This document shows positions 31,023 to 45,428 of a DNA stretch of 64,000 nucleotides, one piece after another (positions within the stretch are counted from its first letter, which is position 1; the number at the start of each line of letters is the position of its first letter). The DNA comes from Algoriphagus pacificus (lineage in GTDB: Bacteria; Bacteroidota; Bacteroidia; Cytophagales; Cyclobacteriaceae), in assembly GCF_017254845.1 (NCBI RefSeq), contig NZ_JAFKCU010000001.1, positions 889,048-953,047 of the forward strand, read 5' to 3'. The position numbers and the translations under genes are program-made. The notes beneath the pieces are model-generated. The model searched no databases. It was given only the letters and a program-made list of their open reading frames with translations, and had not been told where the DNA came from.

Positions 31023-33206
31023 TTAAGAATTCAAAGCTTCTAAAACCCGCTCTGGGGTGAATGGCATATGCCTTAAATGTTTTCCGGTTAATTGAAGGAA
31101 AGCATTGGCAATGGCTCCTGCCACCATGGGGGTGGCTGTTTCTCCAACTCCTTGGGGAGTTTCTCCAGATGGAATTAAAACTGTTTCAATGCTATCAGGG
31201 GAATCCTGCATTCTCAACAAAGAATAATCATTGAAATTACTTTGCTGGATCTGACCATCCACTACAGAAATTCTTTCTTTGAGAGCACTGCTGATGCCCA
31301 TGATAATTCCTCCTTCCATTTGGGCTTTGACATTGTCAGGTTGAATGATGGTTCCGGCATCCAAAGCAATCCAAACGCGATGCACTTTGATTTCACCAGT
31401 TTCCTTATTCAGAGAAATCTCACAAACTCCAGTACCCAAAGAACCATGTTCCACAAATGAAATTCCTTTGGCATAACCCTCAGGTGAAGGTTGGGCCCAA
31501 TTGGAAATTTCTACTGCTTTCTCCAAAGTAGCCAAAGCCCTAGGAGAATTGACCATTAGCTTTCTCCTAAGATCGACTGGATCCATTTTTTGGTCATTGG
31601 CAATTTGATCTAACATGGATTCGATGGCGAATTTATTCGGGCCATGTCCAACCGAACGCCAATGCTTCAATCGAACCCCGTGGGTAGTTGATCTCCAATC
31701 GGCAAACTGGTTCGGAATGGCATAGTGATCATTTTGGATTCCACTGGCTACCAAGTTTCCTCCATCTCCCACAACTGTATGGGAAAATGCATTGATATTT
31801 CCTAAAGCGTCAACACTTGCTTTGATACGTTGCAGCGACATCGGTCGGTAAGTACCATAGCGTAGGTCATCTTCTCTGGTCCAAATGAGTTTGACGGGTT
31901 TTGGAGCTACTTCTTTTGCTAAAACAGCACATTCTTCCACAAAGTCACTAAGGCTTCTTCTTCCAAAACCGCCTCCCAAATACTGCAAATGGACATTGAC
32001 ATTTTCAGGTGGGATTCCCAATACTCTTGGGACACCGAGTTTCGTATCCATTCCTTGTTGGCTGCCGACCCAAACTTCTGCTTTCTGCAAATCTTCCGAC
32101 ACTTGGATCACTGCATTCAGTGGCTCTAATTGAGCATGATAAACGTAATCGTTTTTATAATCGGCTTGGTAAACTTTGGAAGCATTTCGAAGGGCGTTTG
32201 AAACATCTCCTTCTTCTGTGATGACCTCTCCTGCTTGATTTTGAGCTGCAATTTTTTCGTATTCCTGATAGATTTCTTCGGAATTGAAGCCTGAAGCATC
32301 TGAGCTGCTCCAATCAATTTTGAGTTGGCTTTTCGCTTTCAAAGCTTGCTCTAATTTGGAAGCTATCACACCGATGGCATAATCATAGGGAACAACTTTG
32401 ATCACTCCTTCCATACCCAAAATTTCAGATTCATTGAGCAAAGTAGGTTTTGCGCCATGGAGATTTCCTCTTTCCAAAACTCCATAAACCATGTCAGGAA
32501 GGCGGACATCAATGGCAAACTGCGCAGTGCCATCAACTTTTGAAGGTATTTCTGTCCTTGGGATTTCTTTTCCAATTAACTTGAATTTATCCGGGGCTTT
32601 CAGAGGTACCTCTGATATATCCGGCATAGACTCTACCGCAACTAAATAGGGAATCAACTCTCCGTAAGTAATCGTTTTATCCGAGCCAGTATGGGAAACC
32701 ACACTGTTTTCCGCACTCAACTCTCCTACAGGCACTTTCCAATGCTGAGCTGCAGCATGGAGCAAAATAGCTTTTGCTTGGGCACCGGTTGTTCGCATCG
32801 TATTGAAATAGCTATTGGTAGTTCTGCTGCCTACCGTAAACATCATTTTACTGCCCGGAGCCCAGCCCGGAGAACCGTAAGTTTCACTTTCCTGAGGGGA
32901 AAACTCCACTTTTACTTTGGACCAATCGGCATCCATTTCTTCTGCAAAAATCAAGGGCAAAGAAGTCATGGAACCCTGGCCCATTTCTGATGCAGGATTA
33001 TAAATTATGATCTGACCATCTTCTGAAATCTTTACCCAAGCTGTGATAGCATGCTTTTCGAATTGTTCTTGGATTTTCTTTGAGTCTGAACAGGAAACCA
33101 GTGCAGGGAAAATCCCAGAAGCTCCAATAAATAATGCGATTCCGCTTGATGATTTTAGAAATTCTCTACGGTTCAAGGTTCCGTTATTTTTTGATGTTGA
33201 AAGCAT
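31023..33206 (-). CDS. iorB: Molybdopterin-binding large subunit of an isoquinoline-1-oxidoreductase-type hydroxylase
   Basis: This 727-residue member of the xanthine oxidase/aldehyde oxidoreductase family has a Tat signal (LNRREFLKSSSG near residues 11-23), so it acts in the periplasm. Molybdopterin-binding segments include GGGFGRRS and GGNLVASG, and the catalytic glutamate lies in PQGVGETATP near the C-terminus. With the 2Fe-2S subunit encoded immediately upstream it forms a two-subunit enzyme. Relatives oxidise N-heterocycles or aldehydes. The usual cytochrome subunit and the XdhC-type maturation factor are absent here. Confidence 0.88.
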   Translation of the reverse strand: MLSTSKNNGTLNRREFLKSSSGIALFIGASGIFPALVSCSDSKKIQEQFEKHAITAWVKISEDGQIIIYNPASEMGQGSMTSLPLIFAEEMDADWSKVKVEFSPQESETYGSPGWAPGSKMMFTVGSRTTNSYFNTMRTTGAQAKAILLHAAAQHWKVPVGELSAENSVVSHTGSDKTITYGELIPYLVAVESMPDISEVPLKAPDKFKLIGKEIPRTEIPSKVDGTAQFAIDVRLPDMVYGVLERGNLHGAKPTLLNESEILGMEGVIKVVPYDYAIGVIASKLEQALKAKSQLKIDWSSSDASGFNSEEIYQEYEKIAAQNQAGEVITEEGDVSNALRNASKVYQADYKNDYVYHAQLEPLNAVIQVSEDLQKAEVWVGSQQGMDTKLGVPRVLGIPPENVNVHLQYLGGGFGRRSLSDFVEECAVLAKEVAPKPVKLIWTREDDLRYGTYRPMSLQRIKASVDALGNINAFSHTVVGDGGNLVASGIQNDHYAIPNQFADWRSTTHGVRLKHWRSVGHGPNKFAIESMLDQIANDQKMDPVDLRRKLMVNSPRALATLEKAVEISNWAQPSPEGYAKGISFVEHGSLGTGVCEISLNKETGEIKVHRVWIALDAGTIIQPDNVKAQMEGGIIMGISSALKERISVVDGQIQQSNFNDYSLLRMQDSPDSIETVLIPSGETPQGVGETATPMVAGAIANAFLQLTGKHLRHMPFTPERVLEALNS

Positions 33207-33209
33207 TGC

Positions 33210-33671
33210 TTATTGGTTTTGGGCTGCTAATTGGATCGCTTGTACTATTCTCAAATAAGTGCCACAGCGACAAATATTTCCATTCATATGCGCCTTGATT
33301 TCCTCTTTGGATGGACTTGGATTGTTTTCCAATAAGGCGGCAGCTTGCATAATCTGGCCTGAGTGACAGTAGCCGCATTGAGGTGCCTGAACTTCTACCC
33401 AGGCTTTCTGAAGTGGATGATCTCCTTGTTCAGATAAGCCTTCTATGGTTTTGATTTTTTCTCCATTCGAAAAATCCTCCACTGAAAGTACACAGGCCTT
33501 CATAGGCGAGCCATCTACATGAATGGTACAAGCACCGCATTGCGCAATACCACATCCATATTTGGTTCCTGTCAAACCTAAATGTTCTCGAAGCACCCAA
33601 AGCAGTGAGGTGCCTTTATCTACTTCTACTGTATGATTTTGATCGTTGACCGATAGTGTATAGGATGGCAT
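33210..33671 (-). CDS. iorA: 2Fe-2S small subunit of the molybdenum hydroxylase
   Basis: This 153-residue ferredoxin-type subunit has eight cluster-binding cysteines in the standard arrangement. The plant-type 2Fe-2S set is Cys40, Cys45, Cys48 and Cys60 (YGCGIAQCGAC). The C-terminal helical 2Fe-2S set is Cys99, Cys102, Cys134 and Cys136 (QCGYCHSG and ICRCGT). It passes electrons from the molybdenum centre of the large subunit to an outside acceptor. It has no signal of its own and presumably hitch-hikes on the Tat signal of the large subunit. The gap to iorB is 3 bp. Confidence 0.92.
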   Translation of the reverse strand: MPSYTLSVNDQNHTVEVDKGTSLLWVLREHLGLTGTKYGCGIAQCGACTIHVDGSPMKACVLSVEDFSNGEKIKTIEGLSEQGDHPLQKAWVEVQAPQCGYCHSGQIMQAAALLENNPSPSKEEIKAHMNGNICRCGTYLRIVQAIQLAAQNQ

Positions 33672-33984: not shown

Positions 33985-35208
33985 ATGGCTAAATGTTTCG
34001 CATTAATGGGCTGGAGTTTGCCCGTCATAGAAAGTATGCAAAAAACAGGAAGACCTTTTGTAGTGGTTTCCTTTCCAGATTTTGAATCCTACGCACAAGA
34101 AAATAATATCCCTTTCCTTCCTTATCAACTTGATGAGTGGAGTGATACTTCCAACTCTTTAGATCTTTTTGAAAAGCTTAAGGCATTTGATGCTGATGTT
34201 GCGGTGCCACTTTATGAAGAAACGGTAGAATGGGCAGGTGCTTTAAATTCAATCTATAGAGGAGATCCTAGAGTCTTAAACAGAGCCTTCCTTTTCCGTA
34301 ATAAGGCAATGATGAAGCGAAAAGCCTTGATTGGAGGTCTTCGTGTTGGACTTTTTGAAGAGGTGTTTAATAAAGAAGGTGTGAAAGCCTTTATGAAGCG
34401 TCTGAATCAGGCTAATCTTCAGTTGGACGGAGAAGAAGATAGCTGGGTACATATCAAACCTTTCGCTTCAGCCGGAACAGTTGGGCACAGACTACTTCGC
34501 TCCATGAGTGATGTCGATGAGAAATGTGAGGATAGCGATTTCCCATGTTTGGCAGAAAGTCACTTGCCAGGCCGGGAGTTCTCCTGCGAGGCCTTTATTA
34601 ACAAAGGAAAAATCAGATTCCTCAATATCACAGAGTATGTGAAGTTGGGTTATTCAAACTTTATCCCTGAAGGAAGATATCTGGAAAGTAAGCGAGATCT
34701 GATCCATAAAGAAGTGCAGAAGATGGTGGACATCTTTGGAATTGAATATGGAATGGTGCATCCAGAATGGTTCCTGACAGAAAAAGATGAGCTTAACTTC
34801 GGGGAAACAGCCTGCAGAATTCCAGGAGGGCACATTTTAGAACTCTGCTCCAAATCCTATGAATTTGATGCTTTGGCAGCTTTTGTGATCTGTCATGATC
34901 CGAATATTACGGAAGAGGAACTGGATGAAATCTTCCCTGCGAAAGACTTTAAGCCTAAAAATTATCATGGAAATGTGATGATTTATCCTCAGAAGCGCCA
35001 GTTCTCAAAATTGGAAATTCCAGAGTCTCTTAACAATGAACCGTATTTCGTTGAGCATACCTTGATTGCTCCTTATGAAGGCCAGAAGTTGAGTGCTGAT
35101 CGAAATGGTTTCGGGAATCACTTTGGTACGATCAATTTCAAAGGAGAAGATCCAGATCGTATGACTGAGTTGCTCAAGCATTACGAAGAGGAAGAATTTT
35201 ATGTATAA
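33985..35208 (+). CDS. ATP-grasp domain ligase
   Basis: This 407-residue cytoplasmic protein has an N-terminal pre-ATP domain (1-105) and an ATP-grasp core. Visible core features are the lysine strand HIKPFASAGTVG (Lys158), the hinge AESHLPGREFSCEAF (Glu191), VHPEWF (259-263) and a magnesium-binding segment NFGETACRIPGG (Glu274). The family joins a carboxylate to an amine or thiol through an acyl phosphate. The substrate is unknown. It is first of three closely spaced genes, followed at 13 bp by the Cys/His/Asn protein and then by an alanine-racemase homologue, suggesting synthesis of an amide or peptide that contains a D-amino acid. Confidence 0.85.
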   Translation: MAKCFALMGWSLPVIESMQKTGRPFVVVSFPDFESYAQENNIPFLPYQLDEWSDTSNSLDLFEKLKAFDADVAVPLYEETVEWAGALNSIYRGDPRVLNRAFLFRNKAMMKRKALIGGLRVGLFEEVFNKEGVKAFMKRLNQANLQLDGEEDSWVHIKPFASAGTVGHRLLRSMSDVDEKCEDSDFPCLAESHLPGREFSCEAFINKGKIRFLNITEYVKLGYSNFIPEGRYLESKRDLIHKEVQKMVDIFGIEYGMVHPEWFLTEKDELNFGETACRIPGGHILELCSKSYEFDALAAFVICHDPNITEEELDEIFPAKDFKPKNYHGNVMIYPQKRQFSKLEIPESLNNEPYFVEHTLIAPYEGQKLSADRNGFGNHFGTINFKGEDPDRMTELLKHYEEEEFYV

Positions 35209-35221
35209 TCTGAAGCAATAA

Positions 35222-37210
35222 ATGGGATTGACGACCGATAAGGTATTTATTAATTTCGACCAAAGCCTTCAAGAGTTTGTCGACTCTGGAGCACTGTCCA
35301 AAAAAGAAAAGGCCACCAAATTAGCCAGTCACATTGATATTTTGAGTTTGACTCGGTCAGGGCTTGCCTACCTCTATCATAAAAGTGTGGAGTTAGAGCA
35401 AGCTGGCTTTTTCCAAGGGACTTCCTGGAATGACCCTGATAAATTGGTTCCTTTTTTAGTGAAAGGTACGCTCAAATATGGACATCCTTCTTCAAGTTTT
35501 GAAGCCCTATCCGAATTGAGAATGCTTCGATATGCCAAAGGAGAAGATGTCCATGAGCTGCTTTCTGCCGGTGATGCACAGAGTTTCATGGAAGAAGTGC
35601 TTGTTCATAATTTGGAGTTTGCCCTGCGTGAACCGACGGAGGAAACTCGCATGCGAATGACCGAACGTGAGTTGAAAAAAGCTTTTAATCTTTTTGGTTT
35701 TATCATGTCCGAAATGGACTTGAAAGGAGTCTATGAAAAGTTGGTCGACGAAGTGCGGATGCTTTGTGAGCAGCGACCGATCCGAACTCAAAAAGCTCGT
35801 GAACTGATCAGTTTAGTGAATCGGAGGTTTGACACTTCCGGTAATTCTGAAAAAGACAAAGCGATTCAAGTTTACATCCATGCTTTGTTTTCACCTTCCA
35901 AGAACTCTGAAAAGCATCAAGACAGAGATGCATACCAGCAATTTTTGGAAACAGCCAATGAAACAGCTTTAGCCTCAGAAGCTCATGAAATGGGAGAATA
36001 CATGAATGCAACTGGATTAGTCAGTGGCTACCATGCACTTCTCCTGTTACATATTGTAGAAAAGAATCCAAACTTGGTTCCTATCTGTTTGGATCTGAAC
36101 GATCGGGGAATTGCCGAATGGGAGAAATTCCATGAGTTGGTTTCGGTTCTGATTCTCGAGACAGTGAGCTGGGATAACTGCCAATGCATTTATGGTTTGG
36201 CAAGGATGCTTGGGAAAAACCTGTTCTCTAGAAGACCTGTCAGAGTGGGTTTGGAAAATCTCAGGAAAATCAAAATCAACCCTCAGGTAGAAAAGAGAAT
36301 TCTGAAGTCGCTAACCGATCCAGATATGGATGTGACGGCTCTTCAGTACCTCATCGGAGGGACGATCAAGGTTTTGGGTCAGCCGCTAGGAGTTGGTCAG
36401 GGAAATAATCCGACTTGCCAATCCGCAAGAGGGATCAGCATGTGGAGTCAGCATTCACCTGCCAAATTGATCGATATGATCATTACGGTATCCACCCAAA
36501 ATAACCTGATCATGCGATTTGAGAATCAAAATCTGATTTCCAATAATTTGATCAAAGGCTTAGTGGACCAGCTGGATTATAATCTGGATGTGGTTTCGGT
36601 GGTTTTGGTGCCTCACTTGGACAAGATCTACAATGAAATGATGCGGCTTTCCACAGGCAGATTGGATGATCCGCATAAATGGGTCAATCCAGCCATGTAT
36701 GGTCAGTGGATTCAGGTAGGTTTTGCTTCCTGTTACGATTACATGAGTAACTCCATCATGGATTATCCCGGATATCTCAGAATCTTTTACGGGGCTTTTC
36801 ATCCCAAGTACAATGGAAACCAGCAAATGGTTTATCCTAATCCGGTAGGGATTTTCATCACAAGCAATAAGGGAGATATGATAGGTTTTCACGCCATTTC
36901 ACTCCTACGTGTGGAGGAAACCGATGCTGCGGAATTACGGGCTTATTTCCTCAACCCCAATAACGAAGGAAGGCAAGATTGGGGACAGGGAATCCGTCCT
37001 TCGGTGCATGGTAAAGGCGAAAAACAGGGGGAATCCTCTTTGCCTTTTCATCATTTTGCTGCACGAGTTTATGCTTTCCACTACAGCACCTTAAATGTGA
37101 GAAGCAAGCTGGATGAGGTGCCGCAGGAAGAAATCAACCAAGTGGAAAAGCTAGCCAAAGAAAGCTGGGGAAAATCATATCTATGGAATCAACAAACAAA
37201 ATTATGGTAA
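35222..37210 (+). CDS. Large protein with a C-terminal papain-like Cys/His/Asn pattern
   Basis: I do not recognise this 662-residue soluble protein as a named family. The first 380 residues are helix-rich. The C-terminal third shows a cysteine-peptidase-like order: NPTCQSARGISMW with Cys399, GFHAISLLRV with His557, and YFLNPNNEGRQDWG with Asn578. This is like the Cys, His-Ala and Asn...Trp-Gly segments of papain-like and transglutaminase-like folds. It could hydrolyse or transfer an amide made by the neighbouring ATP-grasp enzyme. No signal peptide is seen. The alanine-racemase gene begins inside its 3' end (overlap up to 28 bp), so the two are translationally coupled. Confidence 0.7.
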   Translation: MGLTTDKVFINFDQSLQEFVDSGALSKKEKATKLASHIDILSLTRSGLAYLYHKSVELEQAGFFQGTSWNDPDKLVPFLVKGTLKYGHPSSSFEALSELRMLRYAKGEDVHELLSAGDAQSFMEEVLVHNLEFALREPTEETRMRMTERELKKAFNLFGFIMSEMDLKGVYEKLVDEVRMLCEQRPIRTQKARELISLVNRRFDTSGNSEKDKAIQVYIHALFSPSKNSEKHQDRDAYQQFLETANETALASEAHEMGEYMNATGLVSGYHALLLLHIVEKNPNLVPICLDLNDRGIAEWEKFHELVSVLILETVSWDNCQCIYGLARMLGKNLFSRRPVRVGLENLRKIKINPQVEKRILKSLTDPDMDVTALQYLIGGTIKVLGQPLGVGQGNNPTCQSARGISMWSQHSPAKLIDMIITVSTQNNLIMRFENQNLISNNLIKGLVDQLDYNLDVVSVVLVPHLDKIYNEMMRLSTGRLDDPHKWVNPAMYGQWIQVGFASCYDYMSNSIMDYPGYLRIFYGAFHPKYNGNQQMVYPNPVGIFITSNKGDMIGFHAISLLRVEETDAAELRAYFLNPNNEGRQDWGQGIRPSVHGKGEKQGESSLPFHHFAARVYAFHYSTLNVRSKLDEVPQEEINQVEKLAKESWGKSYLWNQQTKLW

Positions 37211-38361
37211 GACATTCGTCGAGAATAGAACTAAGTCAATCTTCGCTGACGAATAATATTAATTTCATCAGAAAGAAGATCGGAGAGGGAGTGAGAATTT
37301 CCTCTGTGGTGAAAGCCAATGCCTATGGTCATGGGATCCGGTCTTTTGTTAAGATGGCCGAAAAAGCTGGGGTGGGGCATTTTGCTACCGCCTCTGCTTT
37401 TGAAGCGGAAGAGGTTTTGGATGCTAAATCAGATTCCAGTGATGTGATGATCATGGGGATTCTGTATGATGAGGATATTGTATGGGCTGTGGAAAATGAA
37501 ATTGAGTTTTATGTCTTCAATTATGAACGCTTGGCACTTGTGCTGGAAGCCGCCAAGAAAACTGGAAAGCAAGCCAAAGTGCACATTGAAGTGGAGACAG
37601 GAGCTAATCGAACAGGGCTGACTAAGGTGGATTTTTTGCCAACCTTGGCATTTTTGAAGAAGCATTCCAAAGAAATCGCTTTCAAAGGACTTTGCACCCA
37701 TTTTGGCGGGGCGGAGAACTTTTCGAATCAGTTTAAAATCAACATGCAGCATGAGCGCTTCAAGAATTTCTTAAAGCAATGCCATCAGAAAAATATCGTA
37801 CCCGAGATCCGACATATTGCCTGTTCGGCGGCGGCTTTGGCTTACAAGGATACCGTGTATGACATGGTTCGGATCGGAGTGGCCCAATATGGCTTCTGGC
37901 CAAGTCCGGATATTTACTATTCCCATTTGCAGGAAATCGGGAAGCAATCCGATGGAGCGTTAAAGCGGATTTTTACTTGGAAAACCGATGTAATGGATGT
38001 TCGTGATGTTGAGGCTGGAGAATTTATCGGCTATGGTACTTCCTACCAAGCCTCGCAAAATATGAAAGTTGCCGTGATGCCTTTAGGCTATTCTAATGGT
38101 TACCCACGAGCCCAATCCAATAGAGGACATGTGTTGATCAAAGGGAAAAAAGCCCAAGTTGTGGGTTTGATCAATATGAACCTGTTTATGGTGGATGTTT
38201 CCCATATTCCGGATGTACAGGTGGGTGATGAAGTGGTGCTAGTTGGTAGACAGAATAACAATACCATTAATATCAGCTCATTTACGCAGGTGACCCAGCT
38301 TTTGAATAATGAGATGCTGAGTAGATTGCCTTCAGCTATTCCGAGAAAAGTGGTGAAGTAG
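37183..38361 (+). CDS. Alanine-racemase-family PLP enzyme
   Basis: This 392-residue fold-type III PLP enzyme may start at 37183 or at the internal ATG 37204; both overlap the upstream gene. Typical racemase features are the PLP lysine VVKANAYGHG (Lys44), the pyridine-nitrogen arginine VRIGVAQYG (Arg230), the catalytic tyrosine FIGYGTSY (Tyr284) and LGYSNGYPR. The family segment usually reading Met-Asp near the active site is Met-Asn here (INMNLFMVDV), and the usual GYADGYPR is GYSNGYPR, hinting at a substrate other than alanine. Its place as third gene of the cassette suggests it supplies or modifies a D-amino acid. A housekeeping alr elsewhere is likely. Confidence 0.82.
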   Translation: MESTNKIMVRHSSRIELSQSSLTNNINFIRKKIGEGVRISSVVKANAYGHGIRSFVKMAEKAGVGHFATASAFEAEEVLDAKSDSSDVMIMGILYDEDIVWAVENEIEFYVFNYERLALVLEAAKKTGKQAKVHIEVETGANRTGLTKVDFLPTLAFLKKHSKEIAFKGLCTHFGGAENFSNQFKINMQHERFKNFLKQCHQKNIVPEIRHIACSAAALAYKDTVYDMVRIGVAQYGFWPSPDIYYSHLQEIGKQSDGALKRIFTWKTDVMDVRDVEAGEFIGYGTSYQASQNMKVAVMPLGYSNGYPRAQSNRGHVLIKGKKAQVVGLINMNLFMVDVSHIPDVQVGDEVVLVGRQNNNTINISSFTQVTQLLNNEMLSRLPSAIPRKVVK

Positions 38362-43461: not shown

Positions 43462-43860
43462 ATGATTTCAATCTCCAAAAAGCAAAAAGTATGCTTAACG
43501 ATTGCATCAAAAATTGAGAGGGAGGAAATCTATAAGATCCGTCATTCTATCTGTGCTCAATAGCTATATAAGCATCCTATAAACACCAGCGAGCAGCTTA
43601 TTGATAAGCTGGATGATGAGAATGATTATTTCGTAGCCAAACAAGGTTACCAGCTATTTGGATTTATGAGCATTGCTTCTTCCATTCCTGAAAAGTACTC
43701 TGATGAAAAGGACTTTTTCCGCAAAAGCATCCCTGTTGAAATTGATGAATATCAGCATGAAATCCATTTGCATGCGGTTTTCATAGAAAACAGGAACAGT
43801 ATAACAGCCCTATTTTTAATGTTAGCGCCAATTTTTCTTTATCAAATCTCTATTGCCTAA
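43462..43860 (+). pseudogene. Truncated, decayed copy of the GNAT-aminotransferase gene
   Basis: The frame from ATG 43462 matches the first 120 codons of the gene at 46051 (MISISKKQKVCLTIASKIER versus its homologue). It is broken by TAG at 43561-43563 and loses similarity after about 43831. After the stop the frame stays open to TAA 43858-43860 with many substitutions. The whole aminotransferase part is missing. Its last bases overlap the stop codon of the convergent sheath gene. Confidence 0.9.
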
Positions 43861-45428
43861 TCAGTAGTTGGTAATTGAAGTTCGAATGAAAAAACGATAA
43901 ATTCTGCGGGACGAGTTAGTGCAACTCCTACTGATACTATCAAAATTCCATTTTCTATATCCACCGATGTCATGGTTGAGCCTAAGCCACATTGTACCGA
44001 AAATGCATCAGATGCTTTTGCACCCATTAATCCACCTTCTCTCCAAATTCCAGTGAGAAAAGATCCGATCATAGATTTGATTGAATCCCAGGTATTTTTA
44101 GTATTCGGCTCAAAAATATAGGCTTGAGCCGCTGATTTACATGATTGCTCTAAGAAAATCAAGGTTCGCCTTATTGAAATATATTTCATTTCTTGGCTGT
44201 TGCCATCCAATGTTCTAGCTCCCCAAATTAAAATCCCTTTTCCATTAAAAAACCGAATAGCATTAATAGATTTTCCAGAAACGACATCAACATTTAAGTC
44301 CTCTTGTTGCTCATTGGTAATTCTGATTGGTAAATCCACTGCTCCAAAAATTGAGGCGTTAGCAGGAGCTTTCCAAACCCCTTGCTGGATATCAGTTCTT
44401 GTGATGACTCCTGCGATTCCCCCACTTGCAGGCATTACATTGATTGATTTTAAAACTTCATTGATGATTGAGTTATAAGTTTTACTGGCAATCAGGAGCG
44501 ATTTATGGTATTGAGTTATCGAAATCCGTAAGGAAGGATTTTTAATTTCATCTAAAAGTTTTGAAATCTTTGGGTTTTGATTGTCGGCAGGGTTAATAAT
44601 AGATTCAAGCTGGCTAATATCTCCTCCAAACAAATTGGTAAAATCCACATCGGAGGCTTGCATGATTGTGGTTTCAATAAATGGGTAGTACGCAGCGCCA
44701 TAACTCAACCCAATTTCTCCTGTATTATTTCTAAAATTTTCTATATCCTTTGTATAGAGTGTTGGGTCTGGGTTTCTGCCTCCAATCACATCGAAAATAC
44801 TTATCGCAGTTTGAACTTCAGTATTTTGACGTAACATCTCCTGCATTAAAGTTCCATTTTCTTCTATTGATAGGAGTGTCGCTTCAGGACAAATGTACAT
44901 CGTTGGCTCTTTCTCATTCTTTAATGAAGCGACTCCATTAATCAAGGCATTTAATTGAATATTTGGGTTTACAATTTGTTTGCCTGGATTGATTGGTTTT
45001 TTGGAAGGCTGGCCGTAGGTTCCAACAGAAACGATATATGCTTCGCCTCCACCATTTTCATAAAAAAGTCTAATGCTATTGTATAGGTAGTAAATCGTAT
45101 TTGGATCAGGTAATACCGAATAGAAGCTTCCATCTATTGAGATAAAGTTGTCTTTTTTTGGTTGATTTTTTTGCTTTACAAGGTAATACTCAGGACTATA
45201 TTGCTTAGCAGGATCTAGGGCTTTGGGAAAGTCAGAATAACCATAGATTTCTTGAAACTCTGCAAAAGAGCTGATTTTCTGAGGGACATTTTTATAAGAT
45301 TTCTGCTTGAATTTTACCCTAGGTGTATATCCGATAAATGCTGGTATGGCAGTAGGGACTGGAACAACCGAATTTGGAAATGAATTAATTTCGGTAATAT
45401 AAACGCCAGGCTTTTTGATTTTACCCAT
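43857..45428 (-). CDS. Contractile-tail sheath protein (phage or phage-derived)
   Basis: This 523-residue protein matches the tail-sheath family. The N-terminus KKPGVYITEINSFPNSVV followed by AFIGYT is the classic sheath start. The C-terminal region (WREGGLMGAKASDAFSVQCG, then VGVALTRPAEFIVFSFE) is the conserved domain that interlocks neighbouring subunits. Sheaths contract in myophage tails, extracellular injection systems and type VI-like machines. No tube, baseplate, spike or ATPase gene is found within the window, so this copy is isolated. It lies antisense between the two direct repeats. It has no frameshift and looks intact. Confidence 0.9.
   Translation of the reverse strand: MGKIKKPGVYITEINSFPNSVVPVPTAIPAFIGYTPRVKFKQKSYKNVPQKISSFAEFQEIYGYSDFPKALDPAKQYSPEYYLVKQKNQPKKDNFISIDGSFYSVLPDPNTIYYLYNSIRLFYENGGGEAYIVSVGTYGQPSKKPINPGKQIVNPNIQLNALINGVASLKNEKEPTMYICPEATLLSIEENGTLMQEMLRQNTEVQTAISIFDVIGGRNPDPTLYTKDIENFRNNTGEIGLSYGAAYYPFIETTIMQASDVDFTNLFGGDISQLESIINPADNQNPKISKLLDEIKNPSLRISITQYHKSLLIASKTYNSIINEVLKSINVMPASGGIAGVITRTDIQQGVWKAPANASIFGAVDLPIRITNEQQEDLNVDVVSGKSINAIRFFNGKGILIWGARTLDGNSQEMKYISIRRTLIFLEQSCKSAAQAYIFEPNTKNTWDSIKSMIGSFLTGIWREGGLMGAKASDAFSVQCGLGSTMTSVDIENGILIVSVGVALTRPAEFIVFSFELQLPTTD

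Follow-up and report, generated by a model that had tools for sequence, protein, structure and literature searches.

In gene clusters of the vanC-vanXY-vanT type, the order of functions is ligase, peptidase, racemase, and the butirosin pathway includes an ATP-grasp ligase, BtrJ. BtrH is described as a papain-like acyltransferase (PMC10318531), and ornithine is given as the presumed precursor of N-delta-acetylornithine in Halobacillus halophilus (PMC4187189). The present work concerns a cassette of three genes at positions 33985-38361 of a 64,000-nucleotide stretch of the Algoriphagus pacificus genome (G000 C1:889048-953047), hereafter the window. Judged by descriptions of their chemistries, the cassette resembles BtrJ/BtrH in pairing an ATP-grasp ligase with a papain-like protein, yet no carrier-protein family is found among its recurrent neighbours. 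With N-delta-acetylornithine and other amino-acid compatible solutes it would share ornithine as the presumed precursor; the N-delta-acetylornithine route, however, needs an acetyltransferase (not identified in Halobacillus halophilus), whereas genes 1 and 2 of the cassette encode a ligase and a papain-fold protein. It differs from Van-type clusters in that no D-Ala-D-X ligase or D,D-peptidase family occurs among the matches of genes 1 and 2. The preliminary description of this DNA did not recognize the combination as a described system, and the literature searched for the three genes together yielded no description either; an amidoligase survey (Iyer et al. 2009), to which PMC10318531 refers, might mention it.

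We propose that the cassette encodes a small ornithine-using biosynthetic pathway whose product is probably a compatible solute or a related metabolite, with a probability of about 0.48. In Bacteroidota, a dedicated ArgB-ArgD-ArgC-ArgJ set (ArgBDCJ) would convert glutamate to free L-ornithine. Gene 3 would perform a racemization, probably of ornithine, gene 1 would join amino acids into an amide (a dipeptide or an amino-acid amide) in the manner of L-amino acid ligases, and gene 2, a putative Cys-His-Asn papain-fold enzyme (acyltransferase or amidase), would finish the product by acyl transfer, cyclization or trimming, a step comparable to those of phytochelatin synthase and BtrH in their own pathways. 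The substrates, the direction of the reactions and the activities in this scheme are putative. The product may contain a D-amino acid. In saline and alkaline habitats it would probably accumulate, either as a compatible solute or as a small metabolite of a related kind. An amide-forming small pathway with a racemase had been suggested before; that suggestion is supported, as are the conserved unit and the papain-like residues in a predicted papain-like domain. A bolder version is tentative and as a whole rather unlikely. In it, a new class of compatible solute, a (D-)ornithine dipeptide or lactam, would be made from glutamate through ArgBDCJ together with an ATP-grasp ligase for amino acids and papain-fold acyltransferases of a new family, and horizontal transfer would have carried the pathway between phyla, among bacteria of saline and alkaline environments. 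The analysis gives a previously unassigned pathway a probable precursor, and gives a testable role to a family of 662-amino-acid enzymes with no Pfam or NCBIfam model. The proposal would also account for the ornithine-only arginine gene set found beside, or replacing, the arginine pathway in some Bacteroidota and, should the product prove to be an osmolyte, would give soda-lake and marine bacteria an additional class of solute.

According to the open reading frame (ORF) listing of the window, the three plus-strand ORFs form one unit, with a gap of 13 bp between genes 1 and 2 and an overlap of 28 bp between genes 2 and 3 when gene 3 is counted from its first ATG (37183), which bears out the arrangement reported earlier. 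Because an ATGGTAA overlap joins genes 2 and 3 in 53 of the 69 loci that have both, the internal ATG at 37204, inside this motif, appears likelier than 37183 as the start of gene 3. The features of the cassette are as follows.

33985..35208, plus strand: gene 1, homologue of ATP-grasp carboxylate-amine (L-amino-acid) ligases, 407 amino acids (4wd3 match, conserved residues)
35222..37210, plus strand: gene 2, 662 amino acids, predicted to comprise a helical part (residues 1-370) and a papain-like C-terminal domain (~370-662)
36398..36400, plus strand: Gln393 of gene 2, candidate oxyanion-hole Gln, six residues N-terminal to Cys399 (60/60)
36416..36418, plus strand: Cys399 of gene 2, candidate nucleophile, at the N-terminus of predicted helix 399-411 (60/60)
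36890..36892, plus strand: His557 of gene 2, within predicted strand 553-566 (60/60)
36953..36955, plus strand: Asn578 of gene 2, immediately past predicted strand 572-577 (60/60)
37204..38361 (37183..38361 from the first ATG), plus strand: gene 3, alanine-racemase-family pyridoxal phosphate (PLP) enzyme, 392 amino acids from the first ATG (TIGR00492, ATGGTAA overlap)
38095..38097, plus strand: Asn298 of gene 3, in GYSNG, counted from the ATG at 37204 (N in 66/66; Asp in MurF-Alr, 10/10)
38173..38181, plus strand: Asn324-Met325-Asn326 of gene 3 (66/66; Cys-Met-Asp in MurF-Alr, 10/10; N-M-N also in a second alr paralogue)

The scan of named genomes retrieved 218 relatives of gene 2, and the neighbourhood counts use the best 80 of the 218. 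Gene 1 lies directly upstream of gene 2 in 73 of the 74 loci whose sequence extends far enough to show it (the exception is L091), gene 3 lies downstream in 69 of 78, and both are present in 64. The order is thus conserved far beyond chance, and the genes are not the rare neighbours that would have spoken against the unit. As a cassette of three, however, the earlier description holds only in part. Gene 3 is missing downstream in L032, L076, L082, L083, L084, L085, L089, L091 and L092, and from three additional Bacillota loci. Since the ligase and papain-fold protein occur without the racemase in Bacillota and Gemmatimonadota loci and in a Halomonas locus (ORFs read by eye), these two make up the core; by the labels in the gene 2 tree, loci with the racemase belong to Bacteroidota, Balneolota and Rhodothermota. 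Two Bacillota loci of the two-gene form have, convergent to it, a gene for an AblB-type beta-lysine N-acetyltransferase (TIGR03827, over cut-off; L092 7878-8714 and L145 9275-10162).

When the neighbours of the 80 loci were clustered, ArgC, ArgD and ArgJ were the first to emerge. ArgB, ArgD, ArgC and ArgJ genes occur near the cassette in 10 of the 80 loci and in two further genomes (G068 and G319), and family checks on representatives agree with these assignments. The set follows the cassette in three Marinoscillum loci (L019, L021, L022), in L020 (without ArgB), in G068, and, with one member each not called, in L064 and L065. It precedes the cassette on the same strand in L030, G319 and L028 (interrupted by the contig end), and is divergent from it in L033; in L077, ArgJ lies within ~3 kb. 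In the Algoriphagus genomes G000 and G009, ArgBDCJ is located elsewhere in the genome. ArgJ is present in 14 of the 15 cassette genomes tested (the exception is G492; the genome of L014 is outside the count) versus 8 of 92 cassette-free relatives. Genes beside ArgBDCJ in an Algoriphagus locus (L120, 8484-13346) resemble, by eye, a 4-hydroxyproline epimerase and its catabolic set, and a similar set adjoins ArgBDCJ in the cassette-free Algoriphagus loci L122, L129 and L130.

The ArgBDCJ route ends in free ornithine, while the acetylornithine route to arginine releases none. The next steps to arginine were examined in eleven cassette genomes. Six of them (G000, G009, G319, G488, G491 and G493), all with ArgBDCJ genes, have a carbamoyltransferase nearest to N-acetylornithine carbamoyltransferase, with scores of 273 and 269 bits in G000 and G009, under the cut-off of 288. 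This enzyme belongs to a modified arginine pathway via N-acetylcitrulline (PMC4581275), for which free ornithine is not required. G303 and G199 have a true ornithine carbamoyltransferase and no Arg gene in the 6-8 kb beside the cassette, the rest of these genomes being outside the ArgJ search. G068, G490 and G492 present an aspartate carbamoyltransferase only, and their best ArgG-like match is GMP synthase (nominally over cut-off in G068 and G492; G492 has a second, weaker match). An arginine-type carbamoyltransferase and ArgG were not found in these three; the remaining 11 of 14 genomes have them. ArgBDCJ adjoins the cassette in G490 and in G068, a genome of one contig that is 98% complete. 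Given that no arginine-type carbamoyltransferase or ArgG was found in these two, ArgBDCJ cannot serve arginine there, and the simplest reading is that it feeds the cassette. This link is what makes ornithine the probable precursor of the pathway. The arginase family is present in all 14 genomes and is uninformative.

The preliminary description had called gene 1 an ATP-grasp ligase, gene 2 a protein of no known family with Cys399, His557 and Asn578 in papain-like order, and gene 3 a racemase-family PLP enzyme with changed motifs; the identifications agree with what follows, save that only one of the changed motifs proved specific to the cassette. The best solved match of gene 1 in the Protein Data Bank is the L-amino acid ligase 4wd3, which we take to be RizA (E-value of 6e-9, residues 61-313). 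Matches to Pfam ATP-grasp_4 (PF13535, E-value of 6e-4), PRK02186 (3e-8) and PRK07206 (6e-6) are weak and under their cut-offs, and no curated Pfam or NCBIfam cut-off is exceeded. K158, E191, E261, E274 and R278, presumably the ATP (adenosine triphosphate) and metal residues of ATP-grasp enzymes, are kept in at least 98% of 75 aligned rows, and gene 1 therefore appears, from its sequence, to have an ATP-grasp domain with these residues conserved. Its likeness to RizA/BacD L-amino acid ligases has limits: the BacD model (AAntcapLigBacD) scores 11.7 bits where 850 are needed, the partner genes are different, and gene 1 has Ala276. In another locus, L137 (G001 C205), two short adjacent stretches match residues 1-31 and 317-356 of gene 1 at 97-98% identity, and gene 2 was not found in that genome.

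Gene 2 belongs to no family in Pfam, NCBIfam, PADLOC or PHROGs (the top Pfam match is NuiA_2, with an E-value of 0.036, under cut-off), and has no significant sequence match among solved structures. Its predicted structure has a helical N-terminal part of ~370 residues followed by a papain-like C-terminal domain. Gln393, Cys399, His557 and Asn578 are unchanged in 60 of 60 aligned relatives, and the last three stand inside this domain at the positions first reported; Gln393 and Cys399 presumably compare with Gln19 and Cys25 of papain. Going by the predicted secondary structure and the fold alignments, the conserved residues may come together in space. The model thus indicates a papain-like (clan CA) domain with a conserved Gln-Cys-His-Asn series in order, and gene 2 is a candidate enzyme. 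It shares its predicted fold and residue order with clan CA members such as the calpain core, staphopain and the phytochelatin synthase Alr0975, but differs from them in lacking significant sequence matches to solved structures and in carrying the 370-residue helical part. Foldseek against viral structures gave nothing below an E-value of 0.001.

Gene 3 scores 288 bits against the alanine racemase model TIGR00492 (alr; cut-off 168), and the active-site Lys, Tyr and Arg are retained in 66 of 66 cassette copies. It is therefore akin to the alanine racemase family, which includes broad-spectrum and ornithine racemases, but three pocket positions, one in GYSNG and two in NMN, are Asn in 66 of 66 cassette copies, versus Asp, Cys and Asp in 10 of 10 MurF-Alr fusions. 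In all 11 non-Bacillota genomes with the cassette that were searched, three proteins exceed the cut-off of the alr model, and gene 3 is therefore not the housekeeping racemase of these genomes. The substrate of gene 3 is most likely an amino acid bigger than alanine, and probably ornithine. In L126 (1-3329), genes for an M20 amidohydrolase, a second alr-type racemase and an Orr-like ornithine racemase lie upstream of ArgBDCJ; this Orr-like gene was dropped as support for an ornithine racemase, such genes being present in all 23 non-Bacillota genomes searched.

The distribution of the genes is patchy. Gene 2 is present in 6 of 98 relatives, the same six holding a close gene 1 (84-100% identity), in 5 of 60 genus genomes and in 4 of 395 sampled phylum genomes, the window's own genome being included each time. 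The window's gene 2 is 98% identical to the A. aestuarii copy. A protein phylogeny of gene 2 (84 sequences), built by a quick method with SH-aLRT (a Shimodaira-Hasegawa-type likelihood-ratio test) as the only support, and with a 98% identical relative (L013) representing the window, places Algoriphagus beside Imperialibacter and Marinoscillum, apart from its fellow family members Belliella and Cyclobacterium. This placement suggests that gene 2 has spread by horizontal transfer. The gene 2 of L020, labelled Rickettsiales, lies beside that of Marinoscillum pacificum, with matching neighbours, and is probably mis-binned. A single plasmid record, from Halomonas sp. PA16-9, has a relative. A viral origin was rejected: no relative was confirmed in IMG/VR (two peptide patterns) or found in phage records (tblastn), and genes 1 and 2 have no PHROGs match. 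So was a defence system, with no PADLOC match.

Soda-lake sample codes appear in 20 of the 80 record titles, whereas no more than 1903 of the collection's 84,980 species (~2%) could bear them, the 80 loci being the best of 218. Two papers, which report 871 and 1032 genomes, tie such codes to Siberian soda lakes. This salt-lake distribution suggests a compatible-solute role, which is the one we favour.

Several observations weigh against the proposed ornithine pathway. Of the 80 loci, 63 have no Arg gene that could be called, and seven, from Cyclobacterium, adjoin a divergent ordinary arginine operon with ArgG; one of these genomes (G491) also carries a separate ArgBDCJ. Eight cassette-free Algoriphagus have ArgJ, with the same ArgBDCJ operon in the three that were read (G021, G037 and G053). 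Marivirga arenosa (G492) has the cassette but neither ArgJ nor an arginine-type carbamoyltransferase, and is either a counter-example or obtains ornithine another way. Genes not found in G490 count for less than those not found in G068, because G490 is a metagenome bin whose completeness is unknown, and all counts across loci and genomes treat relatives as independent, uncorrected for kinship. As to the enzymes, gene 1 has Ala276 where ligases with the ExN motif have Asn (75-row alignment); fold matches of gene 2 never reach a Z of 8 or an E-value below 0.001; and NMN in gene 3 also occurs in another alr paralogue, which leaves the Asn of GYSNG as the one change confined to cassette copies. 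Because Orr-like genes occur in 23 of 23 non-Bacillota genomes searched, with or without the cassette (none over the curated cut-off), gene 3 may be dispensable for D-ornithine. The osmotic link through mechanosensitive channels is weak, since these lie near the cassette in only 2 of 79 loci scanned (L023 and L047), plus G068 and Halomonas. Finally, no family, including transporter, regulator or tailoring families, is present in more than 4 of the 118 other neighbours.

That last result also bears on the alternative that the same chemistry yields an ornithine-containing reserve, siderophore-like or antibiotic peptide and no osmolyte, since the lack of a recurrent transporter, regulator or tailoring family speaks against it. 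A ligase, a papain-fold enzyme and a racemase are a usual tool set of pathways to small peptides, and the patchy distribution and apparent horizontal spread of gene 2 would suit such a product; we consider it unlikely, though worth keeping in view. Cell-wall remodelling, with the cassette making and editing a D-amino-acid peptide for peptidoglycan, is suggested by the same order of functions as in vanC-vanXY-vanT and by VanT-like matches of the racemase (NF033131, 239 bits, under the cut-off of 460). It is nevertheless improbable: no D-Ala-D-Ala ligase family is among the Pfam and NCBIfam matches of gene 1, which is nearest to an L-amino acid ligase, gene 2 is papain-like and no zinc peptidase, the racemase is missing from Bacillota and Gemmatimonadota loci, and the ornithine operon is left unexplained. 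The divergent operon in the seven Cyclobacterium loci could point to a variant or regulator of arginine metabolism with no new product, but this is very improbable in view of G068 and G490, which have the cassette and ArgBDCJ with an aspartate carbamoyltransferase only and no ArgG found. Least probable of all is that gene 2 is a peptidase maturing or regulating another protein, with the genes linked for other reasons; the solved folds nearest to its predicted structure are indeed proteases, yet its linkage with a small-molecule ligase is near-constant (73 of 74).

Around the cassette, nothing in Rfam reached the gathering score in eight loci, and promoter-like sites numbered 10 versus 9.3 in shuffles. 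Genes of ~270-290 amino acids directly follow gene 3 in some loci: family f20 in L019, L021 and L022, and f14 in L035, L042, L047 and L061 (Marinoscillum, Marivirga); one member of each was checked, with no Pfam family over cut-off. Adjoining the cassette in the window, two minus-strand ORFs (31023-33671) resemble, by eye, the large subunit and the 2Fe-2S small subunit of a molybdenum hydroxylase. Farther on, a minus-strand ORF of 523 amino acids (43857-45428) resembles, also by eye, a contractile tail-sheath protein of a phage-tail-like or extracellular injection system.
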